From Woeseia sp. (GTDB lineage: Bacteria; Pseudomonadota; Gammaproteobacteria; Steroidobacterales; Woeseiaceae): 64,000 bases of DNA. The number at the start of each line of letters is the position of its first letter. Positions within the stretch are counted from its first letter, which is position 1. Under the pieces are notes generated by a model. It worked only from the letters and a program-made list of their open reading frames with translations, was not told the DNA's origin and did no database searches. Below are positions 9,136 to 28,469 of the stretch, one piece after another. The stretch covers positions 620,001-684,000 of the forward strand of contig JAJFKW010000001.1 in the NCBI GenBank assembly GCA_021773015.1, read 5' to 3'. Both the position numbers and the translations under genes were made by a program.

Positions 9136-10533
9136 TCACGAGTAATCGCCACCGATATAAGATTCTGGTACCCAGTTTTCGAACTTAGTGAATCGACCGA
9201 CGAAAGTCAGTGGAAAGTCACCTATCGGACCATTTCTCTGTTTAGCGATCGCGATATCGGCAATGCCTTTGCGCGGCGTATCAGCGTTGTAAACCTCTTC
9301 ACGATAAATAAATAGTATGAGGTCTGCATCTTGTTCAATAGCACCTGACTCTCGCAAATCTGACATTACCGGACGTTTATCTGTCCGCTGTTCCACACTT
9401 CTATTAAGCTGCGACAGCGCAATCACCGGCAGCTCCAATTCTTTCGCTAGCGCCTTTAGCGATCGTGAAATTTCTGAAATTTCCGTTGCCCTGTTTTCGT
9501 TGTTGCCAGGAATTTGCATGAGCTGTAAATAATCCAGGACTATTAGTCCCAATCCATGTTCACGTTTCAATCGGCGCGCACGCGCCCGTATGTCAGTGGG
9601 CGATAAGCCCGGTGAGTCATCGATATGAATCGGCGCGTCAGACATTAACTGAACTGCCGTATTTATGCGCGACCAATCTTCCTCGGGAAATTTGCCGGTT
9701 CGGAGATGTGTTTGATCTACCCGTCCTAGCGAGGAAATCATTCTGAATGCTAATTGCTGTGCGGGCATTTCCATCGAAAATATTGCGGTCGGAACTTTAC
9801 TACCGATTGCGACATTTTCGGCAATATTTACGGCTAACGTGGTTTTACCCATCGAGGGTCGACCTGCAATGATAATGAGGTCACCTGGCTGTAAGCCTGC
9901 GGTCAGCTTGTCGAATTCTGTGTAGCCGGTCGATAAGCCCGAAATATCGCCGCCCGCCTGATGCAATAAGTCGATCCGGTCAACAGCGTCCGGCAAAATT
10001 TTCTTCAGGTGCTTGAAGCCCGAACGCCCGCGTGAGCCTTTTTCTGCAATTTCGAATACGCGCCGCTCGGCCTCGTCAACAAGATCAGCGGCGGATCTTC
10101 CGTCACTGGCAAACGCGCTACCACTGATTTCATTTCCAGCCGAAATCAAAGACCTGAGCGTCGAACGTTCACGCAGTATCCGTGCGTATGCCCGAGCATT
10201 TGCGGCACCTGGCGTTTCGTTCGCCAACGTCGCCAAATATTCGAGTCCGCCCGCTGCAACTAACTCGCCGCGATTGTCGAGATGCTCCGAAACAGTCACC
10301 AGATCGCAGGGTTGGCCGTCTTCAACTAACGCCTCAACTGCGGCGAAAATAAGTCGATGATCTTTGCGATAAAAGTCGCTAGCAAGAACAAGGTCGGCGA
10401 CCTTGTCCCAGGATTCGTTATCCAGCATAAGACCGCCGAGCAACGACTGCTCCGCTTCAATAGAGTTCGGTGGTACCTTCAGCCGCCTTTCTGCTGAATC
10501 GATTGCTGACCCCTCTTCCAGCGCTCGAACCAT
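9136..10533 (-). CDS. dnaB: Replicative DNA helicase DnaB
   Basis: 465 residues. The N-terminal primase-interaction domain (about 20-120) begins with NSIEAEQSLLGGLM. The C-terminal RecA-like hexameric helicase has Walker A GRPSMGKTT (K230), Walker B LIVLDYLQLM and the motif SQLNRSVEQR. It unwinds DNA at the replication fork. It belongs to the rpsF-rpsR-rplI-dnaB-alr neighbourhood. No intein or truncation is visible. Confidence 0.98.
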   Translation of the reverse strand: MVRALEEGSAIDSAERRLKVPPNSIEAEQSLLGGLMLDNESWDKVADLVLASDFYRKDHRLIFAAVEALVEDGQPCDLVTVSEHLDNRGELVAAGGLEYLATLANETPGAANARAYARILRERSTLRSLISAGNEISGSAFASDGRSAADLVDEAERRVFEIAEKGSRGRSGFKHLKKILPDAVDRIDLLHQAGGDISGLSTGYTEFDKLTAGLQPGDLIIIAGRPSMGKTTLAVNIAENVAIGSKVPTAIFSMEMPAQQLAFRMISSLGRVDQTHLRTGKFPEEDWSRINTAVQLMSDAPIHIDDSPGLSPTDIRARARRLKREHGLGLIVLDYLQLMQIPGNNENRATEISEISRSLKALAKELELPVIALSQLNRSVEQRTDKRPVMSDLRESGAIEQDADLILFIYREEVYNADTPRKGIADIAIAKQRNGPIGDFPLTFVGRFTKFENWVPESYIGGDYS

Positions 10534-10639
10534 TGAATATCCTCTGCAGAATTGGCGATAAGTTCCCGGCCGACCTTATTTTGATCGTTACACCGGTTAG
10601 CAAGCTAAAGTATCACATCGTCCTAAGACGATCAGAAGA

Positions 10640-13102: not shown

Positions 13103-13876
13103 CTATTTTGCGCCAGATTCGAGGCCACGCTGACGCATCGCCTCATACAGGCATACGCCTGTCGCGACCGATACGTTCAGGCTTGAAACCACGCCAGACA
13201 TTGGCAGATTGGCCACGATGTCACAGCGATCAAGCATGCCTTTCCGAAGACCCGCCTCCTCGTGCCCCATGACAAGCGCCAGCGGTGACCGTAAGTCACA
13301 TTCAAACAGCGAACGTTCGCCACCATCGCTGGTACCGATGACAATCACGCCGTATTCTCGTAGCCAGCCTAAAACGCGGCCACAATTTGCAACAGCAGCA
13401 AATTTTAGCGATTCGGCAGCTCCAGATGCGACCTTGCTGACAGTCGGTCCCAATCCAGCCGCTCCATGCCTCGGTATGACCACGGCGTCGACACCAGCCG
13501 CATCGGCCGTTCGCAAACACGCGCCCAAATTATGCGGATCTTGAATGCCATCAAGAATCAGCAACAGCAGCGGCGCAGAATCTGCCTCTGTCAGCCTGCT
13601 CTCGACCATCGACCGCAATTCCGCTTCGTCCATAACCGCACTACGAGATATTTCGGCAACGACCCCTTGATGCCTTGTTTCGCCGCTGATCTGTTGAAGT
13701 CGCGCACGATTCGCAGACTGCACGTCGATACCGCGACTGTTGGCTTGCGCGATAACCGCGGCCACCCGCGGGTTTGCCGCTTGGTATTCTGCAAATACCT
13801 TACGAACCTCCACGTTTCGCTGCGACAGCAACTGCTCCACTGCGCGCAACCCTGTTACGTATTTCGCCTTGCTCAT
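13103..13876 (-). CDS. rlmB: 23S rRNA (guanosine-2'-O-)-methyltransferase RlmB
   Basis: 257-residue SpoU/TrmH-family protein. An N-terminal L30e-like substrate-binding domain (about 1-75) is followed by the SPOUT domain with motif 1 LDGIQDPHNLGACLRTADAAG, motif 2 LVMGHEEAGL and motif 3 LPMSGVVSSLNVSVA. It methylates the 2'-O of a guanosine in 23S rRNA (G2251 in E. coli). Its ATG overlaps the rnr stop by one base (TAATG), which indicates translational coupling; rnr-rlmB is a conserved pair. Confidence 0.95.
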   Translation of the reverse strand: MSKAKYVTGLRAVEQLLSQRNVEVRKVFAEYQAANPRVAAVIAQANSRGIDVQSANRARLQQISGETRHQGVVAEISRSAVMDEAELRSMVESRLTEADSAPLLLLILDGIQDPHNLGACLRTADAAGVDAVVIPRHGAAGLGPTVSKVASGAAESLKFAAVANCGRVLGWLREYGVIVIGTSDGGERSLFECDLRSPLALVMGHEEAGLRKGMLDRCDIVANLPMSGVVSSLNVSVATGVCLYEAMRQRGLESGAK

Positions 13877-16119
13877 TATCTACCTCGCGACTTATCTCGC
13901 GGCTTACCTCGCGACTTACCTCGCGCGCCATTCCGATCGCCTTTTTTTTGCGTCTCGGTAGGATGCTTGTCCACTAGTTGAAAATCGATTTTACGCGAAT
14001 CGAGATCGACGCTTGATACGACGACATCCAGACGATCACCGAGACGGTAGCGGGTATTGGAACGCTCACCAACCAACGACTGAGTGGGCGCGTCGAATTG
14101 ATAGTAATCACTACGTAAGCTGGAAACATGTACCAAACCGTCCACTTGTAGATCGTCGAGCATCACGAATAATCCGAAATTTGTCACACCTGTGACGACA
14201 CCTTGAAATTGTTCACCCAACTTTTCGTTCATGAATTGACATTTTAGTGCAGCCTCGACTTCTCGTGTCGCAACCTCGGCACGCTTTTCTCGCTCCGAGC
14301 AAATTACGCCTAGTCGCTCCATGCTTTTGGGATCGTAGTAATATCCGCCGGCCTTGCCTGCGCGAATGATATGACGAATCGCCCGGTGCACCAGTAGGTC
14401 CGGGTAACGACGTATCGGTGAAGTGAAATGGGCATAGGCATCGAGTGCAAGACCAAAGTGACCAATATTTTTTGGCGAATACTCCGCATGCATCAGTGAG
14501 CGCAGCATCGCCATGGAAATTGCCTGCGAATCAGGGCGATCACTGACTTGCGTCATCAATTGATTGAATTGATGCGGTTCGACATGATCAGAGTGCGGCA
14601 CTTTTAGGCCCAGCGATAGCAGGTACAAGCGAAGTTCGTCGAATCTATCTGGATCAGGCTTGGCGTGATCCCGATACAAAGCTGAAATTTTGTGCCTGCG
14701 CAAAAACTTCGCAGCCTGCACGTTCGCAGCAATCATGCATTCTTCGATCAAACGGTGTGCGTCGTTTCTAGCAACAGACACAATTTTTTCGACAATGCCG
14801 TCCTTGTTTAGCTGGATGCGTGTCTGCGGGATATCAAGTTCAATCGCGCCCCGCCGCTGCCGAGCTTTTGCGAATAATGTGTACAACTTGTGTAGATTGT
14901 CTATCGCCGCCAACACTGGTGCTACAAGCTTCTTCGAAGCCCCACCAAGCAAAACTTCGTTGACTTCACTGTAAGTTAATCGTGCATGCGATCGCATCAC
15001 CGCTTCGTAAAATTTACTTTTCGTTACTTTACCGTCTTTGCCGATGCGCATGTCGCAGACCATGCATAAGCGGTCAACTTTAGGATTCAGCGAGCAAAGA
15101 CCGTTCGATAGAACCTCTGGCAGCATGGGAACGACGCGATCCGGAAAATAAACTGAAGTTGCTCGATTCAGCGCTTCACGATCCAATTCCGAATCTTTCT
15201 CGACATAGTGGCCGACATCTGCAATTGCGACCAGCAATCTCCAACCATTACCGGCAGGCTCGCAATAGACGGCATCATCGAAGTCACGTGCGTCGGCCCC
15301 GTCAATGGTGATTAACGGTGTATCGCGAAGATCTGTTCGACCGCTCTTCGCACTACTGGGTACGTTTTTCCCGAAAGACTTTGTTGTTTCCTGGACAGCG
15401 CGTGGCCAGCTATTCGGTATGCCATGCGAGTGAATCGCGATATCCGTCGCAATGCCCTTCTGTTCTGGGCTGCCAATTATTTGAACGATCTGCCCAGTCA
15501 TTTGCGCACTGCCGCTTGGGTAGTCCAGAATTTCTGCAACCACCATTTCACCAGGCTTGGCTTTGCTCGCTGCACCTTTTGCAATAAGCATGCGATGAGA
15601 AATCTTTGGGTTGTCCGGTATTACCAGACCAATACCACGTTCGCGAATAAATTGACCGGCTACTTCGCGAATGCCGCGCTGCAACACCTCGACAACGCGA
15701 CCCTCCTTTCTACCTCGCCTATCGGTGCCAACAATACGAAACGCAATACGGTCGCCATCGATGACCTCTTGCATCTGGCGCGCAGACAAATAGACATCGT
15801 CTTGTTCGTCGTCGCGCGCGATGAATCCGAAACCATCGCGATGGCCGAGTACCTTGCCGGTAAGCAGTTTGATTTTCTCAGTAAGGCAATATTCAGACTT
15901 ACGATTCTTAATAATCTGACCTGCTTGCACCATTTTCCCAAGTTGATCAGCCAGCGCAGATGCGCTCTTCTGGCCTTTCAAGCTAAACCCCTGCGAAATC
16001 GTTTTCGAGGTAACCGGCTTGCCGCAGTCTTTGAGAAATTTCATTAATTCGTTGCGCGACGGTACCGGGTGTCTATAGGTACGCTTCGAATCCGACGCAG
16101 ATTTTTTGTTTTTTGCCAA
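13876..16119 (-). CDS. rnr: Ribonuclease R
   Basis: 747-residue 3'-5' exoribonuclease. Order: N-terminal winged-helix region, cold-shock domains (about 90-230), the RNB catalytic domain containing IDGADARDFDDAVY (catalytic Asp residues), S1 domain (about 640-725) with GVVTGVTNFGLFVML, and a basic tail. The tail is built from short near-repeats of K/R-S/P-R-G/D, encoded by 12-bp near-repeats at 13881-13925. The TTG start has GGAG nine bases upstream. It is the first gene before rlmB. Confidence 0.96.
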   Translation of the reverse strand: MAKNKKSASDSKRTYRHPVPSRNELMKFLKDCGKPVTSKTISQGFSLKGQKSASALADQLGKMVQAGQIIKNRKSEYCLTEKIKLLTGKVLGHRDGFGFIARDDEQDDVYLSARQMQEVIDGDRIAFRIVGTDRRGRKEGRVVEVLQRGIREVAGQFIRERGIGLVIPDNPKISHRMLIAKGAASKAKPGEMVVAEILDYPSGSAQMTGQIVQIIGSPEQKGIATDIAIHSHGIPNSWPRAVQETTKSFGKNVPSSAKSGRTDLRDTPLITIDGADARDFDDAVYCEPAGNGWRLLVAIADVGHYVEKDSELDREALNRATSVYFPDRVVPMLPEVLSNGLCSLNPKVDRLCMVCDMRIGKDGKVTKSKFYEAVMRSHARLTYSEVNEVLLGGASKKLVAPVLAAIDNLHKLYTLFAKARQRRGAIELDIPQTRIQLNKDGIVEKIVSVARNDAHRLIEECMIAANVQAAKFLRRHKISALYRDHAKPDPDRFDELRLYLLSLGLKVPHSDHVEPHQFNQLMTQVSDRPDSQAISMAMLRSLMHAEYSPKNIGHFGLALDAYAHFTSPIRRYPDLLVHRAIRHIIRAGKAGGYYYDPKSMERLGVICSEREKRAEVATREVEAALKCQFMNEKLGEQFQGVVTGVTNFGLFVMLDDLQVDGLVHVSSLRSDYYQFDAPTQSLVGERSNTRYRLGDRLDVVVSSVDLDSRKIDFQLVDKHPTETQKKGDRNGARGKSRGKPRDKSRGR

Positions 16120-16219: not shown

Positions 16220-16306
16220 GCCCAGGTGGCGGAATTGGTAGACGCGCCAGCTTCAGGTGCTGGTCTACGTAAGTAGGTGGAGGTTCAAGTCCTCTTCTGG
16301 GCACCA
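16220..16306 (+). tRNA. tRNA-Leu (anticodon CAG)
   Basis: 87 nt with encoded CCA. The acceptor stem pairs GCCCAGG with TCTGGGC. The anticodon stem CCAGC/GCTGG encloses loop TTCAGGT, with anticodon CAG at 16254-16256. A long variable arm (type II tRNA) and a T-loop GGTTCAAGTCC follow. The 3' end is duplicated at 16488-16515, the hallmark of a tRNA used as an integration site. Confidence 0.96.
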
Positions 16307-16309
16307 AAT
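16282..16309 (+). other. Candidate attachment site, tRNA-Leu 3' end
   Basis: The last 25 bases of the tRNA plus AAT are identical to 16488-16515 (28 bp). Tyrosine recombinases commonly use tRNA 3' ends as att sites, and such events leave exactly this kind of direct repeat. Confidence 0.65.
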
Positions 16310-16313
16310 GATC

Positions 16314-16338
16314 AACGGCCCCTTTTAGGGGCCGTTTT
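16314..16338 (+). terminator. Rho-independent terminator of tRNA-Leu
   Basis: The stem CGGCCCC/GGGGCCG (16316-16322 with 16328-16334) has loop TTTTA, is extended by AA/TT pairs and is followed by TTTT. It lies 8 bp after the tRNA CCA. Confidence 0.88.
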
Positions 16339-16452
16339 CATTTGTGCGAACTGAGAGGACTATTCTCCAGGGCGTTGCTTAATAGATTTCCTGATCCCCG
16401 TATCGCCGCAAGTACACAGCGAGTGTGGCTTCATCAATAAAGCACAAGCAAC
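16335..16452 (+). repeat. Island-edge repeat, copy A
   Basis: About 118 bp, roughly 87% identical by eye to copy B at 16617-16735; the shared core includes GACTATTCTCCAG and TTAATAGATTTCCTGATCCC. A diverged relative lies at 26014-26066. On the minus strand copy A reads as a short coding-like tail ending LRRYGDQEIY and a stop, while copy B does not keep that frame. Confidence 0.85.
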
Positions 16453-16487
16453 TAGGCAAGTTAGCTGCAATTTGGTTCTCCAGTCTC

Positions 16488-16515
16488 GGTTCAAGTCCTC
16501 TTCTGGGCACCAAAT
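16488..16515 (+). repeat. 28-bp duplicate of the tRNA-Leu 3' end (att-like)
   Basis: Perfect copy of 16282-16309, beginning GGTTCAAGTCCTC and ending CACCAAAT, without the rest of the tRNA. It is immediately followed by a two-part stem-loop (16513-16557). No integrase lies between the two copies. Confidence 0.9.
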
Positions 16516-16557: not shown

Positions 16558-16616
16558 GATCTTTAGTGCGCCGCCGCGTCAGCCGCATTGACTAGCCCCA
16601 ATAACTGAGCAATCGT

Positions 16617-16735
16617 TTTTATTTGTGCATCCGGAGAGGACTATTCTCCAGAGCGATGCTTAATAGATTTCCTGATCCCCGTAACACCGCGAGTACAACA
16701 GCGAGTGTGACTTCGTCGCTAAAGCACAAGCGACT
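16617..16735 (+). repeat. Island-edge repeat, copy B
   Basis: Second copy of the unit at 16335-16452, 282 bp downstream in the same orientation. It is separated from copy A by the 28-bp tRNA-end duplicate and the stem-loop. Together with 16736-16863 this makes a 550-bp stretch after the tRNA with no credible gene; 16826-16850 holds a short CCGCT/AGCGG hairpin. Confidence 0.85.
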
Positions 16736-17319: not shown

Positions 17320-17395
17320 TGAAATCCCGAACAGATTAGAAAAATAGCGCAAATTGTGCCGCTTAGTCGGAGGTATTGTTTCTTCGCGCTAAAGT

Positions 17396-17580
17396 CTGCT
17401 TTGGGTCAGAAGCAGTCTATTGACACCTTACCACCCGAATGCCCGCCATTGGGTGACAAGCGGCCATTCAAGAGGCTACTGACCTACAACGGAAGGTGTT
17501 CTCGAAAGCGGACGTTCAAATGCCCGAAATTATGCAGTAGCGAAGGGCCACTTTCGGCCACAAGTGGACGATGCAGCGTT
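17396..17580. repeat. Hairpin-rich intergenic repeat (family R)
   Basis: CTGCTT/AAGCAG form a hairpin around the loop TGGGTCAG (17396-17415). Further on, CCACTT/AAGTGG enclose TCGGCCAC near 17550. The same GGGTCA-loop and GGCCAC-loop pieces recur between other island genes. There is no gene in 17353-17589. Confidence 0.6.
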
Positions 17581-17589
17581 TATTAAGCA

Positions 17590-18012
17590 TCACTGCAATT
17601 TGCACCAAATCTGATCATAAAAATGGACCGGATGATAAAACGAAAAGCACACGTCCTCGATGAGTTTGACTGGAAAAGACGTTTCAGTACCATCTTCGTT
17701 TGTTTCTGATATTAGTATTTGGGATGCACCAATTTCCTTCCAAGTATAAGGGCTCTCAGAGCTAAACTGGAAAATCTGCGAGTCGTCTGACCTTGTCCTC
17801 AATATGGACATCGCGCAAGTGAATTGCCATTGCACAGAAGTCATCGCACCAATATCTGCTTCCTCCTCATCGTCTATACGGTGTTTGCTGTCAAGGTAAT
17901 TTGCTGCCGAACGAACGTGATCTACCTCCCACACGCCCTCAAGGGGACACGCGCCGGCAATCGATGAAAAGGCAAGAAGACTGATTACGGCAATCTCGGT
18001 CATGTGTCGCAT
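17590..18012 (-). CDS. Exported hypothetical protein
   Basis: About 140 residues from ATG 18012 (ATG 18003 is also possible). A clear signal peptide (TEIAVISLLAFSSIAGA) is followed by CPLEGVWEVDHVRS, reminiscent of small lipocalin-like or lysozyme-inhibitor-type secreted proteins that begin with a GxW motif. Three later cysteines could form disulfides. The family is not recognised. It is a single gene flanked by intergenic repeats on both sides. Confidence 0.6.
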   Translation of the reverse strand: MRHMTEIAVISLLAFSSIAGACPLEGVWEVDHVRSAANYLDSKHRIDDEEEADIGAMTSVQWQFTCAMSILRTRSDDSQIFQFSSESPYTWKEIGASQILISETNEDGTETSFPVKLIEDVCFSFYHPVHFYDQIWCKLQ

Positions 18013-18042
18013 AACGTACCTATGTCTGGCTAACTTCGAACG

Positions 18043-18115
18043 TCCGCTTTGGGTCAAAAGCAGCCTCTTAGCATTCTAACAGTCGAGCGGCTGGTTTCGG
18101 CCACGACTTGCCGTT
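18043..18115. repeat. Intergenic repeat (family R)
   Basis: Contains CCGCTTTGGGTCAAAAGCAG and then GAGCGGCTGGTTTCGGCCAC, the two pieces shared with the repeats at 17396, 23215, 23591, 24309 and 24938. It lies between two oppositely oriented single genes. Confidence 0.6.
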
Positions 18116-18214
18116 GTCGAGTGGCTGGCGTACCTCCGAAATCAGACGTTCAGATGGTATGCTTTCAGCTGCTGTTTCTGAGGCAAAACGGACATCCCGA
18201 GCTCCTCCCTACAG

Positions 18215-18667
18215 ATGAAAGTTGAATTGCTTGACGATCATTCCGAGTCAATTCCGATGCTCGCGGATTGGTATGTTTCGGAGTGGGCGCCTTACTACGG
18301 CATTGACGGCCCCGGCGACGCAAGAACCGATTTGGTATCGCGCACTAATCGTGATGAGATTCCAATTGGTTTCGTGGCGATTGAAGGTGACGAGATTATC
18401 GGGGCAGCTGCTCTCGATTTCGACGTAGCGACGGAGCGAACCCCGTCTGTAGTTGGGCTGCTGGTAGAACCGTCGCGACGTGGGCGAGGCGTAGCGACAG
18501 CATTGCTCAAATCAGCTGAACTTCACGCGAAACGACTCGGCTGCAGTCGCTTGTATGTCAGCACGACTGTTCTGGATCGCCTACTTGTACGGATGGGTTG
18601 GTATCCACTCGAAGAGATAGAGTTCTTGGATAGTGAGAAGGGATTGATCTACGCACGTGACCTTTGA
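18215..18667 (+). CDS. GNAT-family N-acetyltransferase
   Basis: 150 residues with a single Gcn5-related acetyltransferase fold. Motif A is VVGLLVEPSRRGRGVATALL, with the acetyl-CoA pyrophosphate-binding RRGRGVA loop. The preceding strand IIGAAALDFD and the C-terminal LYVSTTVLDRLLVRMGW fit the fold. The substrate cannot be predicted. The ATG at 18215 begins the first strand directly. Isolated gene in the island. Confidence 0.88.
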   Translation: MKVELLDDHSESIPMLADWYVSEWAPYYGIDGPGDARTDLVSRTNRDEIPIGFVAIEGDEIIGAAALDFDVATERTPSVVGLLVEPSRRGRGVATALLKSAELHAKRLGCSRLYVSTTVLDRLLVRMGWYPLEEIEFLDSEKGLIYARDL

Positions 18668-18846
18668 ATAGTCAGTTGTGATATCCGTTAATTATGAACG
18701 AGCGCTACACTGGTTACGTTGCCGACAGGTACATTCCAACTTCACACTGACGGTGACTCGAAGCAGCCAGAACTGGCTGGCCGCGTAGAAAGATTCTCGA
18801 CCTGATAGACTAAGTTGTCTAGCGATTTCAATCTCAAGGATGCCTA

Positions 18847-19143
18847 ATGCCTGAGCCTATGGTGTATTTTCTCACGTTGGCCCCGTCGTTGGCTTTGTTT
18901 ATTGGGTACCTCTATGCGGCAGACGCCCTTGATAGGGTTGTCCGCTCTTGATACCCCGATGTCTGGACTAGAATTGCTGGGCATTGGGATGCCCATTCAA
19001 GCTCAAATACATTTCTTCTTTATCGAGAGAGTGACCTGCTCAAATCTCTAGACGACGCTGAAATTGCCAAGCTTTTGAAAGTTATTCGATACCTATTTTT
19101 GGCATTTGCGGTGTCGCTCATTGGCGTATTTCTCTTCGCGTAA
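18847..19143 (+). pseudogene. Small two-helix membrane protein gene with one in-frame TGA
   Basis: From ATG 18847 the frame gives 34 residues with a hydrophobic N-terminal helix (MVYFLTLAPSLALFIGYLYA) and then TGA at 18949-18951. The same frame runs on for 63 codons (YPDVWTRIAGHW ... SLDDAEIAKLLKVIR) and ends with a second helix (YLFLAFAVSLIGVFLFA) and TAA at 19141. The whole would be a 98-residue protein with helices at both ends. As in the lipoprotein gene at 16864, TGA could derive from CGA. No start codon re-opens the frame after the stop. Family not recognised. Confidence 0.62.
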
Positions 19144-19287
19144 CCAGTCTGCACGCGAATGGCAACTTCGGGTCATTGCCTGGACTCTGTCAGAGCGAAG
19201 TTGAAGTGAAGGGAAAACATCAATTCTTTGGCTCTGGCGAAAAATGAGGATAAGATCCTGAATTCGTTTGAACGCAGGTGCCCCTGA

Positions 19288-20340
19288 ATGAGAAATGTCT
19301 TAATTGCCATCTCCGTCCTCATAGCTTTTCCTGCCGACGCAACCTGGGGCCCTGATTCGCCTGCTTATCGGCACGAGGCGCCGATCATTGGCACGTGGAA
19401 AGGCGAGTTTCAGGGAAAGATATTCGAAATAGCGATTTGGCCAGACTCAACGTCGCACAAGCTCACTGGAGCTATGGTTTGGGGCGAGTGTAGAGCTGTG
19501 TTGGGCCTTTCCGGGATAGATCTGCATGGCGCAATCGCTGGAGCCACGAAAGAAAAATTTGATGCGACCCCGAACTTAGACAGGTACCTTTTCGGGATGG
19601 CCAGTTACCCCAACCAGGTCAACATGCCGGGGAATCGCTGCCCCGGAGAGGGCAGGCCGGGCTACGGTGGATTCCACCTGAATACAGATGAATCGTTTAG
19701 CCTGCTCACGATGTACAGCTACGCGACCTACCCCGCTCTCAAGAAACACCCGGGTACCCTGCAACGCAGTGTTCCTTCGCGAAAACTGGCTGAAGTTGTC
19801 AGGTGGCTCGACACCAAAACAAGTGTCACTCTGACCACCATGGCCGAGAATGTGGTGTTCGACCCGACGCTGAACTACTTCCAGTTGTCCGAAAAGCAGT
19901 TTGCAACCCGACTTGACGATATCGACGGGCTTTCCTTCGTCTCAGATTTTGGTTTCGTTTACCGAATAGACCGTACGCAGTCCAAACACCCCGATCGGCA
20001 GTATTTCAAGCTGGTTGTCGTGGATGACGAACTTTCTACTTTCAGCGTCGGGGACATCGGCGGTGAGGGATATTTTGCACCGACGTCCCAGGAAATGTTG
20101 ATCACTCTGTATGGGAACGCACCCCCTTGCGGAGTTACCCATTACCCCTACACGATCTTCGACGTGTCCCAACAGCGCGACGCGACGCCTACGGCGGAGA
20201 GCGCGGAGGGCCAGTCGTGGGTGCTCAACTCCCCGAAGGGGTCGTGCAAAGCGGTTTCGTTGAATAGCTACTGCAGAAACGTGACTTGTACCGATTGGTT
20301 GGATACGCAGGATAAACCGGTCGTTTCCAGCAGCCGCTAA
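19288..20340 (+). CDS. Secreted hypothetical protein
   Basis: 350 residues with a signal peptide (MRNVLIAISVLIAFPADA). The first half contains IIGTWKGEFQGKIFEIAIW, a beta-rich opening typical of small periplasmic or surface proteins. Several cysteines are spread over the chain (including GNRCPGEGRPG and SYCRNVTCTDW), which suggests disulfides. The C-terminal end is hydrophilic, with no anchor. I do not recognise the family. It is preceded by a short GCAACTTCGGGTC-type intergenic segment and converges with the Sel1 gene. Confidence 0.65.
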   Translation: MRNVLIAISVLIAFPADATWGPDSPAYRHEAPIIGTWKGEFQGKIFEIAIWPDSTSHKLTGAMVWGECRAVLGLSGIDLHGAIAGATKEKFDATPNLDRYLFGMASYPNQVNMPGNRCPGEGRPGYGGFHLNTDESFSLLTMYSYATYPALKKHPGTLQRSVPSRKLAEVVRWLDTKTSVTLTTMAENVVFDPTLNYFQLSEKQFATRLDDIDGLSFVSDFGFVYRIDRTQSKHPDRQYFKLVVVDDELSTFSVGDIGGEGYFAPTSQEMLITLYGNAPPCGVTHYPYTIFDVSQQRDATPTAESAEGQSWVLNSPKGSCKAVSLNSYCRNVTCTDWLDTQDKPVVSSSR

Positions 20341-20366
20341 GATGCACTTATTTCTAGATCTGTCTC

Positions 20367-21455
20367 CTAACTACACTCTCCTGGGTATTTATCACAATAT
20401 TCAGCAAGAAATTCTCGAGTTTCCTGGATAGCTTGAATCTCGACGGAATTGATCCCCGCATCAGCGTTTTCATATCCCAATTCTTTGGACTTTTGAAACC
20501 ACCCTAGAGCTTCGCTAAATTCCTCGTCGGCTGCTGCTATGACACCCAGGTTATTGGCAGCCATCCCGGACCCTTCTTCTACCGCTTTCTTATAGTAATG
20601 GATCGCCTTTTCCCTATCCCTTTCAACACCCAAACCTTCGGAATATGAGTACCCCAAGACGGTTGATGCTTGCACATAGTTCTGGTCGCTCGATTTTTCG
20701 AACCAGAGTATCGCCTCTTCGTACCTTTCGCTTTTCATACGCATAACCCCGGCGTTAAATTGCGATTCTCTGTCCCCCGTGTTGTTTGCTGACCACCAAA
20801 AATACTTGAACGCCGTATCCCAGTCATTGATGCGGTCATACTCCAGACCCACCGAGGAAAATGATTCGGTAGTCAAGGTCCGAAAATACTCTTTCCCAAA
20901 AACTCCTCTAACGTAATCATCAGGTGCAAACTCATAAATCGATGCCGTCATGGGTTTTTGGTTTAGATAGATAAAGGTAACCAAAGCGCTTCCGCCAACG
21001 GTCGCCTCGAAGTTCGTGTTTGTGTAGGCCAGTTCCCTTTCAAACAGCTGGTGCAATCCTAACCTTTCATCATCCAAATCCAGTTCAGATATGAATTGAA
21101 CCATTTTGGTATCTGTCTGTTTCGACAATGACAAACCAATTGTTGTGATGTGAGTCTCAACTTCTTTGAGAATGTCATCGGGGATGTCATCCTTTGTGAC
21201 AACATAGGAAGATAGGACCAGATGCTCTTTATTCGAAAAATAGACTGTAAAAGGGACCTCACCATATTCTTTGCGACTTTGAAACTTGGTAGCGTCTTCG
21301 TCATTTAAGACTTTGTACTTGAATAGATCGTCACTTGTACTGGACTCCCCTTCAGTGGCGAGAACTGAACCACACAACAAATATGATAAGAATAGGACTA
21401 AAGAGTTTTTGCGACAATCTCTATGTCTGATCCCATTCCGGTCGTTTTTCGTCAT
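20367..21455 (-). CDS. Exported Sel1/TPR-repeat protein
   Basis: 362 residues. A signal peptide (SLVLFLSYLLCGSVLA, about 18-33) precedes an N-terminal domain of about 170 residues that I do not recognise. Sel1-like repeats follow from about 200 to 345, including AGVMRMKSERYEEAILWFEK, LGYSYSEGLGVERDREKAIH and NLGVIAAADEEFSEALGWF. Sel1 repeats mediate protein-protein contacts, usually in the periplasm or outside the cell. Single gene in the island; lower GC than the housekeeping genes by eye. Confidence 0.8.
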   Translation of the reverse strand: MTKNDRNGIRHRDCRKNSLVLFLSYLLCGSVLATEGESSTSDDLFKYKVLNDEDATKFQSRKEYGEVPFTVYFSNKEHLVLSSYVVTKDDIPDDILKEVETHITTIGLSLSKQTDTKMVQFISELDLDDERLGLHQLFERELAYTNTNFEATVGGSALVTFIYLNQKPMTASIYEFAPDDYVRGVFGKEYFRTLTTESFSSVGLEYDRINDWDTAFKYFWWSANNTGDRESQFNAGVMRMKSERYEEAILWFEKSSDQNYVQASTVLGYSYSEGLGVERDREKAIHYYKKAVEEGSGMAANNLGVIAAADEEFSEALGWFQKSKELGYENADAGINSVEIQAIQETREFLAEYCDKYPGECS

Positions 21456-21539
21456 AACTACTCTCCTCCCACTTGTTTTTCTGCTTGCTCGCGACGGACC
21501 GATCGGATAGCGGTGGAGCCGTCCATGCGGGGCATAGCG

Positions 21540-21992
21540 TCAGGCGTTTTTCATTGCTTCTATTGCATCCAGATATTGCTGTCTATCAAAAACAAAACCT
21601 TCAAAATTGGAATAGTCCCATTCTTCGTCTCTATGAGGTTGCTCAAAATCGGTCCAGGTTACCGTGTTACCAAGCACTCTGATCTTGCAAAGCAACGACC
21701 AACACCCCTCGATCCCGCAAATACAGACGAGTAACGCGGTTTTGTTCTGATCAAGTCCCCGGTCAGCATTATCTTTTCCAAGGTAATATTGTCCGAGCGA
21801 AGAAGATGCTGTCGTTATTGCATAGTACGCTCCCGCAAGCCCCGGATGCCCCTCCTTCGTTGCCATAGGTAGCTCATAGGCTTGCATAACATCTGCTAAC
21901 GGTTTGCCGTCAACATGAATGTTTACTGTTGAGTCTGCATGACCTGATGGGAATTTCCGTGTTTCTAGAACTTCGAATACGATTTTGTTCAT
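21540..21992 (-). CDS. Conserved hypothetical protein with CGIEGCW motif
   Basis: 150 residues, soluble, no signal peptide. The central CICGIEGCWSLLCKI and the following WTDFEQPHRDEEWDY and FVFDRQQY resemble a widespread uncharacterised bacterial family that keeps a CG-x2-GCW-x-L core and a WxDFEQPHR segment. I recognise the pattern but know no function. It often occurs as an isolated accessory gene, as here. Confidence 0.7.
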   Translation of the reverse strand: MNKIVFEVLETRKFPSGHADSTVNIHVDGKPLADVMQAYELPMATKEGHPGLAGAYYAITTASSSLGQYYLGKDNADRGLDQNKTALLVCICGIEGCWSLLCKIRVLGNTVTWTDFEQPHRDEEWDYSNFEGFVFDRQQYLDAIEAMKNA

Positions 21993-22102
21993 TCGATTAC
22001 CTGATAACTATCGATCAGTGGCGGTGGTCGCTTCCATCTACCCATCACTCACCGAGCGTCTTTCGGGAAATTCATTGAATTGTTGTGCGACAGAATCGAA
22101 CT

Positions 22103-23068
22103 TTACCTTTTCTTTTGTTCCAGTCGCTTTCCGGCATGTGCGAACGCCAAATACTCAATGTAGCTACTAATCATTTCATAGGAATCCCCCCCCCGAAACG
22201 TCCTCCCATTTAGCGTAAATACGGGCGCTCCGACTTTCCTCCCGAACTTGAAATCATAGCTATTGGTTAGTTCCACTTGTCGAGCCAGCCAGTCGTTCGG
22301 ATCCTCGCAATCACCTTCGACCAATCCATTCAGCTTCATCAAAAATGATGAAACTTCAGCTACCGACTTAATCTCGCTATCTTTGCGAAAATTTCCTGCC
22401 TCAGCGAACAAAAAGTATCGATTTGAGAGTTCCTTTGATGAACCAGGGTATTTGATACGGTTATCAATGTCCCTATTGATCATATTTATTAGTTCATCAA
22501 ACGTTTGCATAAAAGCGGCTTCTCCCCTTTCGGCGAAAACGCAATTCAAGGTTGATTCGATGTCGACACCTGCTTTGTATGCGGTCAGCGCTCTGTCACC
22601 GTGGTCCAACAGAGCCGTAGCCCTTGGCATACTCAGCAAGGCCAGGTTTAGGTGCCCTTCAGACACCGCCTTTCGAATGATGGCAAAATTGTTCGACAGA
22701 AATTCTATACAATGCGGACAACCGACGCCGTACTGCATAATAAGTGTTGGAGCATCCACTGAGCTTTCGATTTTTAGATGTATTGTGTCCTCTTCGAAAA
22801 AACTGGCGTACGAAACAACCGGTCCCAATATATATTCAGTCATACGATGGAAATCTGAACTAGCTCGCCGATGACCTTGTATAGCCAATGGCTGCAACAT
22901 TTCTATTGCATCAGAGATCTCACCCTTTTCTTCGAGGGCACGAGCCGCGGCAATAATATCTCGGGCTTGAATGTCAGCATGTCCGGATGTTGCATCCTGG
23001 CCCAATGCTGCCGTACTCGCCAGAATAAAAAATAGAACCAGCATCGCAGTCAGAAGTTCAAATCGCAT
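22103..23068 (-). CDS. Periplasmic DsbA-like thiol-disulfide protein with N-terminal repeat domain
   Basis: About 321 residues from ATG 23068 (a GTG lies one codon upstream). A signal peptide ends near ALGQ. Residues about 35-75 look like a degenerate TPR/Sel1 segment (AARALEEKGEISDAIEMLQP). A DsbA-like thioredoxin fold follows, with the redox motif C117-P-H-C120 and the cis-Pro loop GAPVF near residue 285. It resembles the DsbA/DsbG-type oxidoreductases that use CPHC. A run of nine G (coding strand, 22186-22194) lies in the C-terminal codons and could slip. Single gene in the island. Confidence 0.82.
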   Translation of the reverse strand: MRFELLTAMLVLFFILASTAALGQDATSGHADIQARDIIAAARALEEKGEISDAIEMLQPLAIQGHRRASSDFHRMTEYILGPVVSYASFFEEDTIHLKIESSVDAPTLIMQYGVGCPHCIEFLSNNFAIIRKAVSEGHLNLALLSMPRATALLDHGDRALTAYKAGVDIESTLNCVFAERGEAAFMQTFDELINMINRDIDNRIKYPGSSKELSNRYFLFAEAGNFRKDSEIKSVAEVSSFLMKLNGLVEGDCEDPNDWLARQVELTNSYDFKFGRKVGAPVFTLNGRTFRGGDSYEMISSYIEYLAFAHAGKRLEQKKR

Positions 23069-23214
23069 CACCTACACTCCAATTCTTGGTCGGCCAGGGT
23101 TCGAGCATAGCTGCGGTGACAGCCACCACAAGAGTAACAGAGGCGATGATGCAACGTGTTCTGATAGTGAGCATCATCAACTACTCGCCAAGCCTGATCG
23201 AAATACTCTTAGTG

Positions 23215-23280
23215 CCCGCCTCGGGTCAGCAGCGGTCGCTCACGACTCTAGCAACTGGGCGGCTGATTAAGGTGGCCGGC
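23215..23280. repeat. Intergenic repeat (family R)
   Basis: CCGCCTCGGGTCAGCAGCGG followed by GGGCGGCTGATTAAGGTGGCC, a diverged match to the repeats at 18043 and 24309. Confidence 0.5.
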
Positions 23281-23590
23281 CCGCCGACGGCCCAGCCGTC
23301 TTGAATCGTCGAGCCCTCGGGCGATCTCGTCGCGACCTCTTTCGATCGGCTGCCAGTTGGGGCCACGCGCCTCTACGAATGCGTAGTTCAGACTTGGCCA
23401 CTTGCAGTTAACGAGACCGAGGTGGTTGGCTTCGACGCCACAGAAGTGGATGAGTAGGCGGAGGTGGACACGCAGTAATCGTCATCTACCACTATTTCGC
23501 AATACGACCTTCACGGCAATCACCTCTTATCATTGGTTGGGATAGGCTCGAAACGGGTTTCGCGAAAATTAGCCGTTCATCGTGAGTGGC

Positions 23591-23663
23591 AAGAACGGGT
23601 CAATACCAGCCTCTGAGTATAACTCCAGGCGAGCGGCTGGATACGGCCACAAGCAGCCGCTCG
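23591..23663. repeat. Intergenic repeat (family R) with 10-bp perfect inverted repeat
   Basis: CGAGCGGCTG (23630-23639) and CAGCCGCTCG (23654-23663) pair perfectly around a 14-base loop that contains CGGCCAC. The segment GCGAGCGGCTGGATACGGCC is shared with the copy at 18043. Confidence 0.65.
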
Positions 23664-23705
23664 GGGTCAATCAAAACTCCTAGAGTCTAAGCATCTTGTT
23701 GCAGT

Positions 23706-24218
23706 TCACAGGACAACATTCATTTCCTTCAACATCTTCTGGCACGCACCATCCAAGAGTCCGTCCAAATCAGCGGCATCGAATACTGGCCTTAGTCTCG
23801 ACAGGGCTCTCCAAGTGAACAATCGTGGAATAAACTCTCGCCAATTCATTTTTTCTATCGTCGAAAATTCAACCTTCGTCTCACCGGTAACAGGTGAGAA
23901 AAGCCTCGATCTAATTTGAACCTTCGGTCTCCAAAAAATCGGAAAGCCTACATCTCCAAGCTCAAAGCCCCAATAGTCGCCAGACTGGTATTTTGGGATG
24001 ATGACATCAAGAACTAGATCATCTTGTTTCGGCTCGACTAATGTCGATACTGAAGGGAGTGGTATTAGAGCAATCAATCTTTGCTTCAATGAGATACTCA
24101 GGCCCTCGCATTCAACTACTCCCCATTCGTCGATTGTTTTTGGACCAGTTCGTTTAGCGACACTGAGTTCACCAAGGAAAATCCTAGGTTTCGATTTCGC
24201 AATAAAATGTCGAAGCAA
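23706..24218 (-). CDS. Conserved hypothetical protein
   Basis: 170 residues from TTG 24218; the frame is closed by TGA-TAA ten codons further upstream and has no ATG there. No signal peptide or clear membrane helix. Features: YQSGDYWGFELG, FPIFWRPK and a conserved-looking C-terminus (FIPRLFTWRALSRLRPVFDAAD). I have the impression of a family of uncharacterised gammaproteobacterial proteins with a QSGDYW and FWRP core, but cannot name it. Isolated in the island. Confidence 0.6.
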   Translation of the reverse strand: MLRHFIAKSKPRIFLGELSVAKRTGPKTIDEWGVVECEGLSISLKQRLIALIPLPSVSTLVEPKQDDLVLDVIIPKYQSGDYWGFELGDVGFPIFWRPKVQIRSRLFSPVTGETKVEFSTIEKMNWREFIPRLFTWRALSRLRPVFDAADLDGLLDGACQKMLKEMNVVL

Positions 24219-24308
24219 TCGCTTTCTCGTGTGGTCAGTATCAGGTTATCAAAAGGCAAACATGTCGCCATACACGTCCATTCTTCCGACGAATACGAGT
24301 GGCTGCTT

Positions 24309-24505
24309 TGGGTCAGTAGCGGACCGTCAACATCATAGCAGACGAACGGCTGGTATCAGGTGCGAAGCATCCACTGCCTAGCGCAGACTGAAGCCGATTG
24401 TCGTTGACCTGACATGTGCAGTCGACCGCTTTCATCGTAAGCGGTCATTCGGGTCAACGAAATTTCAGGTATTCGAAGGGCGGCTAGCGGCCAAAAAGCG
24501 GCCAC
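24309..24505. repeat. Long intergenic repeat (family R), copy e
   Basis: About 195 bp that match 24938-25163 over nearly the full length. Shared landmarks are GGGTCAGTAGCG, TCAACATCATAGCAG, GCGCAGACTGAAGCCGATTG and GTAAGCGGTCATTC. It lies downstream of the cupin gene. Confidence 0.8.
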
Positions 24506-24515
24506 CCAGGTACCG

Positions 24516-24866
24516 CTATATTTTCAATTTCTTTGCCGCAGTCGCCTCGTCACCAGTGTTCGGTGTTCCGCGAGGCTCTATGAGTAGTAGTTCGGCTTCA
24601 TCTTCTGCTACCGGACAGTGTTCCACTCCTTTCGGCACCACAAACATCTCGCCCTTTTGCAGGTGAATGTCTCGATCCCGAAGCTTGATTGTGACTCGTC
24701 CCTTGAGAACCAAGAAGAAATCGTCAGTGTCGGGGTGTGAGTGCCAGTTGAATTCACCCTTTACTTTCACAACCATTACGTCATGCCCATTGAAATCCGA
24801 CACGATCTTTGGCGACCAGTGTTCAGAAAATGTGGCTAATTTGTCTTTGAGATTTATAGCAGTCAT
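24516..24866 (-). CDS. Cupin-domain protein
   Basis: 116 residues from ATG 24866. The open frame reaches 25022, but the extra 52 codons lie in the repeat. Single cupin barrel: motif 1 FNWHSHPDTDDFFLVLKG carries the His/His/Glu-or-Asp metal ligand pattern, and motif 2 is GEMFVVPKGVEHCPVA. Small stand-alone cupins act as metal-dependent enzymes or sugar/ligand binders; this one cannot be assigned a reaction. It is framed on both sides by copies of the same long repeat, like a cassette. Confidence 0.85.
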   Translation of the reverse strand: MTAINLKDKLATFSEHWSPKIVSDFNGHDVMVVKVKGEFNWHSHPDTDDFFLVLKGRVTIKLRDRDIHLQKGEMFVVPKGVEHCPVAEDEAELLLIEPRGTPNTGDEATAAKKLKI

Positions 24867-24937
24867 GCCAAATTCTGTATTATTCTTTTTTGAATTACGG
24901 ATTACCGGTCGACGCAATACACTCGCCGATTGGCTAC

Positions 24938-25163
24938 AGCGGGTCAGTAGCGACACTTCAACATCATAGCAGGCGAACGGCTGATTTCGGGTGCGAAGCA
25001 GCCACTGACTTGCATTGGTCACATTCTGACATTGTTGACACTACCGAGCGCAGACTGAAGCCGATTGTCGTTGACCTGACATGGTCAGTCGACTGCTTTC
25101 ACCGTAAGCGGTCATTCAGATCACCGAATCTTCAGGAATTCGAAGGGCAGTTGACGTCCAAAA
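24938..25163. repeat. Long intergenic repeat (family R), copy f
   Basis: Relative of 24309-24505 with about 40 extra bases in the middle (containing TGGTCACATTCTGACATTG). That middle block is shared with the third copy at 25902-25970, so the three copies are mosaics. It fills most of the 361-bp gap 24867-25227. Confidence 0.8.
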
Positions 25164-25183
25164 GGGGTCCTTGTGCCAAGCAT

Positions 25184-25207
25184 AAAAAAACCCCGCGTAA
25201 CGCGGGG
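25184..25207 (-). terminator. Rho-independent terminator of the PEP-CTERM gene
   Basis: The GC-rich stem CCCCGCG/CGCGGGG with loop TAA (25191-25207) is followed on the minus strand by seven T. It lies 20 bp after the stop of the PEP-CTERM gene. Confidence 0.92.
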
Positions 25208-25227
25208 CTTCTTGGGTCTTGTTAAGG

Positions 25228-25749
25228 TCAGACTTTCTTGCGTCTAGCTAGTCCGATTCCAAAAAGACCGATGCCTAACAGAGCAAGAGTGCCGGGTTCG
25301 GGGACGGACACGGAGCGCTGCGTTACTGACAGTGCACCGTCAAAAAATTCAATTTGGGTATCCGTCCTTATCGCGTAAATAAACCCCTCTGCTTCCGTAA
25401 ACTGAAAAAACAGCTCAATCGATAGGATCCCTGCCGGAAAAGATGGGAATGATGGGCCGCCTGTCAATGTGACAATGCCAGACATGCAAAACCCGATACA
25501 TCCAGTCAATACATCAAACGACTGACTCTCGACGTTCCCTAGGACCCCGATAAGGTCACCGGAATCAAAGCTCAGATCCAAACTAAACCCGCTTATCAAC
25601 TCGGCATCGGTATCCCACATGAACGAGCCGACACCACCTGACACATTGCCCGAGGCTCCAAACACCATGTCATAAGTAATTACGTCGGCTTGAGCAGATA
25701 GAGGCCCAAGAACAAAAATCGCTGTAATCATTAGTCTTAGTTGTCGCAC
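25228..25749 (-). CDS. PEP-CTERM sorting-domain protein
   Basis: 173 residues. A signal peptide (LMITAIFVLGPLSAQA) leads into a Gly/Ser-rich extracellular part of about 125 residues. It ends in a canonical PEP-CTERM tail: VPEPGTLALLGIGLFGIG followed by LARRKKV. Such proteins are processed by an exosortase (EpsH/XrtA type) and are usually linked to exopolysaccharide. Neither exosortase nor polysaccharide genes are in the window, so the sorting machinery must be elsewhere in the genome. It has its own strong terminator and is flanked by family R repeats. Confidence 0.93.
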   Translation of the reverse strand: MRQLRLMITAIFVLGPLSAQADVITYDMVFGASGNVSGGVGSFMWDTDAELISGFSLDLSFDSGDLIGVLGNVESQSFDVLTGCIGFCMSGIVTLTGGPSFPSFPAGILSIELFFQFTEAEGFIYAIRTDTQIEFFDGALSVTQRSVSVPEPGTLALLGIGLFGIGLARRKKV

Positions 25750-25901
25750 AATCGTGTTCCCCCTGATTTACACTTTAAATCAAGCAATTTTCATGCCGGT
25801 ATTACAATTGATTAAGTATCAACTCGTTATGGCTGTACCGTTTTAGTGCGGGCGCTGTTCTGTAAAGGAAGTCGACGTAATTGGCTACTAAATGACTGTT
25901 G

Positions 25902-25970
25902 TCGGGTGCGAAGCCGCCACTGACTTACGGTGGTCACAATCTGACATGGTTGACACTGACTAGCGCAGAC
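25902..25970. repeat. Intergenic repeat (family R), copy g
   Basis: TCGGGTGCGAAGC, CCACTGACTT, TGGTCACA and TAGCGCAGAC match copy f in the same order. It lies upstream of the PEP-CTERM gene in the 349-bp gap 25750-26098. Confidence 0.75.
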
Positions 25971-26098: not shown

Positions 26099-28294
26099 TT
26101 ACGGATCGGAGCGGTGGTCTTCAATCAGTGCGACAAACGCTGAATCGTTCCACAGTTTCTTGAACGCCGGCGACCGCGCAATAACGTTCGGCGTCGCATA
26201 CCAATTCGAAGGTTTCGATAAAAGGTCATCCAGTTTTTGCAGAACTAATTTGCTTTCGCCGACGAGCGCGTATGTTCTGGCAAAGTTCAATACATACAAT
26301 GGACCATCGACAGCATCTTTGGACACTGGATACAATGCAGTTGCGCGGGCCGCAAATTCAATCGCGTTTTCTTTATCCTTCAATCCAGCATGTGCAAGCC
26401 CAAGGGCACTGATAACTCGCGGGTCATCCGGGACTTCCAGAACCTTCGATTGCAAAATCATCCTGGCCGATTCGAAATAGCCTACAGACTTCGCTGGGTC
26501 ACCTATATACGATTCCGTTAGGCCGCGCATCAAATCCAATGGGTAGTAAGCGTACTGTTTGACGACGATATCGGTCCGATGGCTATCAATAATGCTCATT
26601 GCAAGATCATAGTCTCCGAGAATCAATGCCATTTCCCAGCGATAGGCAATCTCCACCGCACTCGATCCGTCAGAGAACGCCGGGTCTTGTGTCAATTCGA
26701 ACATTGCCGGTGAATTCACATCCTGACTTAACAGTGCATAGGCACGGAGGATTTTCAGGCCAAAATTCGCAGGCGCAAGCTCTAACGCTCTGTCATAGTG
26801 AGGAAGAGATTGCGCATATTGATCAAGAATTACGTAGGTATTCGCCAACACATAATGTGGCGAAAAATTATCTGGATCTAACTCTATCGCACGACTTAGA
26901 TCCGGTATTGCCTTCGCCAAGTTACCGCGCCGACGAAGGACGAATGCGCGTATTGCGTACGCTTCCGAATTGCCAGGTGCCAAGGGTATCGCGAAATCCA
27001 ATTGTTGTAGGGCACGACTGTAATCTAGAAAGCCTTTGTAGTAGAAGTCCGCGAGCGCTATGCGCGACTCCGGCATTCCAGGACTTGAATCAAATGCTTT
27101 GTCGATTGCAACGCGTGCCAAGTCACGATGTTTGGTGTCTCTCTCGCTCGTAAAATATCGGTCAAGATAGGCACGAGCAAGTGCTAACTGCGCCAGGGCA
27201 AAGTCCGGGTCTAGCGAAACGGCTTTTTCAAGAAGCTGTGCTACTTCATTGCGAGTACCCAAACCAAGCGTACGCCTAAGTTGCTGCGCTCGCTGGTATA
27301 GATCGTATGCGTCCAAATTCGTAGTTGGAACATTGCCAATCGCTACGCGCTCTAAAGGTGAAATCTTCATGCGCATTGCATCTGCGATGGCAGCCGCGAT
27401 CTCGCTTTGAATCGAAAAGATATTTGACGGTGTCAACTCCCGATCATAAGTCTCCGACCAAATGTGCTTATCCTGTACAGCGTCAATGAGCTGCATATTA
27501 ATTCGGACTCTTTCACCAGAACGCTGCACACTCCCTTCCAAAATAATTTTAACGCCAAGCTCTGCGCTAATCTCTGACATAGGTTTTGCGGTATCGCGAT
27601 ACTGCTCCATAGAGGTCCGAGAAATCACTTTTTCTAAGAATGACAACTTGCTAAGCTGCGTCAAAATATCGTCGTGCATGCCGTCAGCAAAATAAACATC
27701 CGAGCTATCTGCACTGCGACTTTGAAACGGCAATACAGCGATTGACCGCTCATGAATCAAAGACGGTGATTCCAGTCGCCCCTCAGTGAGGTCGACGTTA
27801 TCTAGCTCCGAGAGAGGCGATAGAGTTCGTCCAACAATGAAATAGCCAATAGCAGCAATTATCACTCCAAAAATGACAGGAACGCTCTTGCGGTTGAGAA
27901 ATCGAATTCTCGTTACGCCGCCCCGATTATTGTATTGGGATTGTATTGGCGAGAAAAATGGTTTGTAACGTCCCTTCGGAATTTCGATTTTTACCGTATC
28001 ACTCGGTGTTGACTCGCCATAATACTCACGAAGTTTGCTGCGCAAGCGGCTTGCCTCAACTCGGACAATTGAATCAATCGCCGGATCGAATGATTCATCC
28101 CTTTGAAAGACATCGATCCCTACGGAATATTCGCCAAGTTTGTTCTCCCGTCCCTCCAAAGCTGCATCGACAACATAGCTAAGAAAATCGCACAGACGTT
28201 TGGATCGGGAGAATTGCGGGCTCGCTAGAATACGATCGCATTGGGCGCGAATCTCATCACGTGTCAATTCAGGATTTTTTAGATCTGCTGGCAT
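26099..28294 (-). CDS. Winged-helix / TolB-like / TPR membrane regulator
   Basis: About 731 residues from ATG 28294. The N-terminal segment (about 10-115) matches the DNA-binding-like domain of adenylate-cyclase-associated TPR proteins (LCDFLSYVVDAALEG, IVRVEASRLRSKLREYY, IPKGRYKPFF). One membrane helix follows at about 135-155. A TolB/FlgO-like domain fills about 185-315 (SIAVLPFQSRS, YFADGMHDDILTQLSKL, VRINMQLIDA). TPR repeats follow to the end. The layout suggests a CadC-like membrane-bound regulator or scaffold; targets are unknown. It directly borders the island. Confidence 0.82.
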   Translation of the reverse strand: MPADLKNPELTRDEIRAQCDRILASPQFSRSKRLCDFLSYVVDAALEGRENKLGEYSVGIDVFQRDESFDPAIDSIVRVEASRLRSKLREYYGESTPSDTVKIEIPKGRYKPFFSPIQSQYNNRGGVTRIRFLNRKSVPVIFGVIIAAIGYFIVGRTLSPLSELDNVDLTEGRLESPSLIHERSIAVLPFQSRSADSSDVYFADGMHDDILTQLSKLSFLEKVISRTSMEQYRDTAKPMSEISAELGVKIILEGSVQRSGERVRINMQLIDAVQDKHIWSETYDRELTPSNIFSIQSEIAAAIADAMRMKISPLERVAIGNVPTTNLDAYDLYQRAQQLRRTLGLGTRNEVAQLLEKAVSLDPDFALAQLALARAYLDRYFTSERDTKHRDLARVAIDKAFDSSPGMPESRIALADFYYKGFLDYSRALQQLDFAIPLAPGNSEAYAIRAFVLRRRGNLAKAIPDLSRAIELDPDNFSPHYVLANTYVILDQYAQSLPHYDRALELAPANFGLKILRAYALLSQDVNSPAMFELTQDPAFSDGSSAVEIAYRWEMALILGDYDLAMSIIDSHRTDIVVKQYAYYPLDLMRGLTESYIGDPAKSVGYFESARMILQSKVLEVPDDPRVISALGLAHAGLKDKENAIEFAARATALYPVSKDAVDGPLYVLNFARTYALVGESKLVLQKLDDLLSKPSNWYATPNVIARSPAFKKLWNDSAFVALIEDHRSDP

Positions 28295-28469
28295 TAGCAA
28301 TAGGTGTTTGATCTGCTTGCAGAAATTCAGTATATCACGCTAGTTTCTGTGGCTAAAAGTCTCACACCAGATGATCAACTGATGTGTAGGCAAACGGCCG
28401 AGTCAAGATCGTCGAGAATGGCGCTCGGCTTACCTCTACGATAGGCAGTCTGCTGTTTGGTCGCTAGAA

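Follow-up and report, generated by a model that had tools for sequence, protein, structure and literature searches.

The most familiar arrays of single-gene cassettes are those of integrons. Here, we compare with them a cluster of intergenic repeat units of about 90 bp in the gammaproteobacterium Woeseia sp. (assembly GCA_021773015.1, 4.84 Mb in 6 contigs). The window analyzed is the whole stretch of 64,000 bp, G000:C1:620001-684000 (contig JAJFKW010000001.1). Integrons, sedentary chromosomal integrons, and clusters of attC sites lacking integron integrases (CALINs) resemble these units and their genes in having one-direction arrays of mostly single-gene cassettes, a partly palindromic site for each cassette, lineage-typical sites, sporadic genes, and clusters without a recombinase. 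In contrast to integrons, the units here do not contain attC boxes and have a fixed GGGTCA centre. The recombinase found with them in related genomes consists of the catalytic domain only, scores 27.5 bits on the integron integrase (IntI) model against a cut-off of 265, and is encoded between two inverted sites.

Sites of tyrosine recombinases consist of inverted arms flanking a short crossover region. Simple tyrosine recombinases of the Xer/Cre type are similar to the present system in the catalytic fold, the catalytic residues, and short two-arm sites around a small centre. The FimB/FimE invertases are about as short as the small recombinase described below. These systems act at one dif site or at one invertible switch, whereas the present sites number in the tens in a genome and are placed between single genes. 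Repetitive extragenic palindromic (REP) sequences and bacterial interspersed mosaic elements (BIMEs) with their REP-associated tyrosine transposases (RAYTs), as well as miniature inverted-repeat transposable elements (MITEs), are likewise short palindromic intergenic repeats in many copies. The units here differ from them in being polar, in having one gene per gap, and in their linkage to a Phage_integrase-family tyrosine recombinase.

We propose, with a probability of roughly 70%, that the units are attachment-site-like parts of a cassette system that resembles integrons but has a site and a recombinase of its own. We class it as integron-like in its mode of action, but outside the integron family. 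A cassette would be composed of one gene and one unit of about 90 bp, and cassettes would be joined head-to-tail in one direction with the gene reading against the unit. Crossover is predicted at the near-invariant GGGTCA, and a cassette would span the interval between two successive GGGTCA motifs, which contains the second core and then the gene. The putative enzyme is a catalytic-domain-only tyrosine recombinase of about 210 aa, whose gene lies inside the arrays of relatives. No description of such a system was found in the open-access literature, and a literature search with the motif GCTTTGGGTC gave nothing relevant among the matches listed. In the part of a survey of recombinases (PMC8138268) covered by a term search, there was no match to a catalytic-domain-only cassette recombinase.

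Structure of the Units

An exact pattern derived from the window repeats, GGGTCRNNAGCRGNC, matches this genome 24 times, against 5 matches of the reversed pattern. From the sequence around these matches, a consensus of about 90 bp was derived, GAACGTCCGCTTTGGGTCAGTAGCAGCC-tip-GGCTGCTTTCGGCCAGAAGCGGACGTTC. The unit is composed of two tandem palindromic core sites, GnCnGCTTt-GGGTCA-ntAGCnGnC and GnCnGCTTT-CGGCCA-naAGCnGnC. The first-pass annotation, which was based on the window sequence alone, described the repeats as mosaic hairpins; this description has to be refined, as each consists of two core sites in tandem, which that reader could not see. The two-core unit has the shape that would be expected of tyrosine recombinase sites.

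A covariance model of the unit (R1) was trained on 23 GGGTCA-containing copies of this genome. In an alignment of 150 units, conservation is highest at every second base of the arms and in GGGTCA (88–100% at each of its six positions, with an invariant C). Part of the conservation of GGGTCA comes from the selection of the copies. The second centre, CGGCCA, which was not selected for in the model, is conserved at 56–86%, less well than GGGTCA.

The two halves of the unit are rough inverted copies of each other, and the whole could fold as one long hairpin. In the inner stem, compensatory pairs are in modest excess, 848 versus 823 (z 3.6; about 2 when non-redundant, with values of up to 2.2 in slid controls). 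No such excess is seen in the outer stem or in the local palindromes. The earlier statement that hairpins keep pairing while bases differ is thus weakly upheld for the inner stem and not for the others. Covariation was rejected as proof of the hairpin, since in both alignments analyzed the signal was too weak when compared with shuffles and slid partners and when redundancy was removed. A folded form of the unit is possible, and the enzyme may act on double-stranded sites or, as with attC, on a folded strand.

The units lie at the 3' ends of genes in an antiparallel layout, and similar repeats are able to recombine by homology. It could be considered from these facts that they are RNA-level or transcriptional elements, such as terminators or 3'-end stabilizers, shuffled with island genes by homologous recombination. 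This explanation is highly unlikely. An Rfam scan detected no family at the repeat positions, and most window units fold as single strands no better than shuffles, one block excepted. Besides, the inverted arms around a fixed 6-base centre are similar to a protein site, and in distant bacteria these cores are located on the flanks of a recombinase gene.

Arrays and Gene Content

The R1 search revealed 42 units in this genome at E <= 1e-5. A neighbour is present within 3 kb for 33 of the 42; in 2000 random trials, this number was 2.1 on average and never exceeded 10. Neighbouring units are on the same strand in 21 of 22 pairs, and some units are solitary. The arrays of relatives are longer. In one related genome, G017, contigs C5 and C55 contain more than 12 units each, all on one strand, and contig C14 of G140 contains 19 units within 11 kb. 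Across arrays of 11–25 kb, there is about one unit per gene. The array contigs C55 (at the end of locus L032) and C5 (at the start of L030) of G017 have an identical 141-bp end; based on this sequence, the two may be one array of about 25 kb.

The orientation of the genes relative to the units is biased. In the first set of arrays, the longest open reading frame (ORF) between units is antiparallel to them at 79:9, and 65 of 90 gaps contain a single ORF of at least 80 aa. A second set, from other genomes, gave similar values: 76:11 for antiparallel ORFs, 70 of 89 gaps with a single ORF, and 91:9 for units on the same strand. Fifty cassette ORFs match 44 Pfam families, and among the 25 families listed, all but one are seen in a single member. 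Two of the 50 cassette proteins match models of anti-phage defence (a ThsC-like HIT protein and PDC-S07), and three match DUF6090.

The presence of array genes was investigated in 20 relatives, with flanking genes as a control. None of the 20 has a match to the window genes at 17590, 19288, 22103, 23706, and 25228. The gene at 21540 is matched in one relative, the GNAT gene in two, and the cupin gene in six; the tetratricopeptide repeat (TPR) gene matches relatives through its repeats only. The flanking genes rpsF and rlmB are present in 18 and 19 relatives, respectively. Since the units are clustered and the array genes are sporadic beside conserved flanks, the objection that the copies are distributed equally between core genes does not apply to this cluster. 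A covariance-model search of this and related genomes had been recommended in the first-pass annotation, together with a test of whether the hits flank strain-variable single genes; most relatives lack the window genes that lie between units. The interpretation given there holds in part. Its central proposal, a system other than an integron for gathering single genes, is supported by the arrays, their single strand, one gene per gap, the sporadic genes, the lack of an integron integrase above the cut-off in this genome, and the lack of attC boxes; the movement of the genes is deduced.

The same repeats could be interpreted as dispersed REP- or MITE-like miniature elements, perhaps non-autonomous derivatives of the recombinase unit, that pile up in gene-poor islands and bracket genes incidentally. 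They are palindromic, present in many copies, and sometimes solitary; the recombinase gene itself is bounded by inverted copies; and near-identical units are seen beside different genes. We consider this unlikely. Against it stand the strict polarity relative to genes, the single strand per array, and the rate of about one unit per gene over 11–25 kb. The RAYT transposase family (Y1_Tnp) was not found in three unit-rich genomes, G000 (this genome), G140, and G026.

The Small Tyrosine Recombinase

G017 encodes a 208-aa protein with the Phage_integrase domain only (3e-21) inside an array, and unit arrays are present on both sides of its gene. Of the catalytic residues, R59, K87, R159, H182, and Y191 are invariant among 18 homologues, and H156 is nearly so. 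The predicted fold resembles the catalytic domains of Xer/Cre, with moderate confidence (predicted local distance difference test, pLDDT, 76). Of 30 relatives, G017 and G026 encode the recombinase and G010 and G009 contain fragments of it; all four are unit-rich (a distant 35% match in G028 was left out of this count). Among 196 genomes of the order, it is present in 8 of 23 with at least 9 units versus 3 of 173 with fewer, without correction for kinship; this search scored only the best candidates, and its unit counts reach at most about 21. The presence of a small tyrosine recombinase inside the arrays of relatives could not be seen by the first-pass annotation.

In three genomes, the recombinase gene is located between inverted copies of the unit; the two copies are near-identical in G017, and in G094 and G073 their relationship is clear. 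In G026, the flanking units point in the same direction. Outside the order, more than 550 stretches, some of them on plasmids, encode relatives of the recombinase. Of 79 loci of other Proteobacteria, 35 have a core in the 200 bp upstream of the gene, against a background of 8%, and 33 have one in the 140 bp downstream, against 4%. One of these loci, L100, is the same contig as G094 C1, and the two were counted as one case. The first, permissive core pattern had a background of 32%, and the stricter one was chosen after viewing the sequences, which makes the P values somewhat optimistic. Core sites flank recombinase homologues in Pseudomonas, Burkholderia, and others. The strongest argument for connecting the core with the recombinase gene is that they occur together in distant bacteria.

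In four loci on large plasmids of Pseudomonas and Thauera (L163–L166), the recombinase is present as a single gene, for example beside a phosphite dehydrogenase operon. A locus of Massilia (L108) was considered as a cultured cassette array and rejected; it contains several units, but the strands of its ORFs are ambiguous.

A CALIN, here composed of ordinary integron cassettes with unusual attC sites and left without an integrase, would likewise consist of single-gene cassettes pointing one way. In the group, G011 and G026 encode integron integrases that pass the cut-off, and the R1 search found no units in either locus. In agreement with the first-pass annotation, no integron integrase above the cut-off was found in this genome, where the best match reaches 83 bits, nor in the most array-rich relatives, G017, G009, G010, and G016. 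A simple box test, less elaborate than a full attC model, found the attC boxes RYYYAAC and GTTRRRY at the ends of 0 of 150 units. As the sites are also linked to a different recombinase, there is very little to recommend a CALIN here. In Methylobacter tundripaludum SV96 (L102), a recombinase homologue at 10001–10624 is near attC-like sequences of the form TAACA...GTTAG at 13475–15150; based on the sequence, the small-recombinase system and an integron may coexist in this locus.

Signs of Mobility

A cassette gene common to G073 and G178 is 90% identical over 1.1 kb, and the sequence to the left of the unit differs. The homologous part starts at the CGGCCA core and continues up to GGGTCA in the following unit. 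A second homologous pair, within G017, has a break in the same region on one side. These breaks fit a crossover near GGGTCA. Exact mapping of the crossover with homologous cassettes was attempted and abandoned, as the breaks fall inside units and the point is blurred by the similarity of the units.

Several facts weigh against the proposed cassette system. The similarity of the units to one another prevents an exact placement of the crossover point. In G017, near-identical units are attached to different genes, and so a unit and its gene do not always travel together. The covariation is weak for a site that is folded. The recombinase was not detected at the threshold used in 15 of the 23 unit-rich genomes, G000 included, and two genomes have the recombinase without any R1 unit. 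The association tests ignore ancestry. The movement of cassettes is deduced from sequence comparison, and no excision, integration, or recombination was observed.

We infer, with these points in mind, that the recombinase moves cassettes and that the window contains a cluster without its recombinase. Because the recombinase was not found in this genome, the window cluster beside tRNA-Leu is probably stranded or served in trans. A wider proposal, to which we give even chances, is that this is a second, independently built gene-cassette system. Here, a recombinase encoded between inverted double-core sites would capture and stack single genes, related recombinase units would be spread across Pseudomonadota including plasmids, and clusters of the window type would be the residue. 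If this is true, cassette collecting would have evolved more than once, or would be far wider than integron searches show, and many single genes that lack an explanation would belong to a mobile platform. The idea can be tested, as cultured Pseudomonas, Paraburkholderia, and Massilia have homologues of the recombinase, some of them plasmid-borne.

The Repeat Cluster in the Window

The repeat cluster lies between the gene for tRNA-Leu (cag) at 16220–16306 on the plus strand, identified by ARAGORN and Rfam, and the TPR-protein gene at 26099–28300. At the left edge of the window, the gene order is rpsF, rlmB, and rnr. The strict core pattern has four matches in the window, all on the plus strand and all within the cluster. 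The shared intergenic pieces noted in the first-pass annotation were recovered by repeat search and self-BLAST, with GGGTCA units at 17403, 18051, 23223, 23597, 24310, and 24941 and copies of the long block at 24296–24496, 24927–25163, and 25896–25970. R1 scores six units.

All units are on the plus strand. Unit A (17381–17474; 52 bits) has two core sites, and core-like sequence continues to about 17580. It is separated from unit B (18029–18115; 76 bits) by a single gene on the minus strand at 17590–18012, which has no Pfam match and whose start codon was assigned by eye. The following 5 kb (18116–23200) contain no recognized unit and five genes on both strands, which encode a GNAT protein, two unknown proteins, a TPR/Sel1 protein, and a thioredoxin-like protein. 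Unit C (23201–23294; 39 bits) is degenerate. Unit D (23575–23667; 61 bits) includes the 10-bp inverted repeat at 23630–23663 that had been pointed out before, and is separated from unit E by a single minus-strand gene of no known family at 23706–24218.

Unit E (24288–24381; 76 bits) is joined to a second, diverged unit-like block, together covering 24288–24505 (repeat families D1 and D3). Unit F (24919–25012; 68 bits) has a second block as in unit E, together covering 24919–25170 (repeat search). The cupin gene (24516–24866, minus strand; Cupin_2, 6e-15) lies between units E and F. The PEP-CTERM gene (25228–25749, minus strand; PEP-CTERM, 5e-9) lies between unit F and the partial unit G (25891–25970; repeat family D7), which retains the right half and the block common with unit F at 84% identity. 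Both genes are therefore bracketed by repeat copies, as originally described.

The genes at 17590 and 23706, the cupin gene at 24516, and the PEP-CTERM gene at 25228 are each antiparallel to the units that bracket them. These orientations were read by hand, and the count scored the cupin gap as "same" owing to an overlapping spurious ORF. Plus-strand genes, including the GNAT gene and the gene at 19288, are in the unit-free stretch. The gene orientation, initially reported as mixed, is thus mixed for the cluster as a whole and uniform for the unit-bracketed genes.

The second blocks of E (24382–24505) and F (25039–25170) look like two units joined with no gene between them, and comparable double units are present in G017, G010, and G026. 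At the edge of the cluster, the 3' end of tRNA-Leu has an exact 28-bp copy (16282–16309 and 16488–16515), and a 122-bp direct repeat of 87% identity is located 3' of the gene (16333–16453 and 16614–16735). These repeats suggest an earlier insertion of another element at the tRNA gene.

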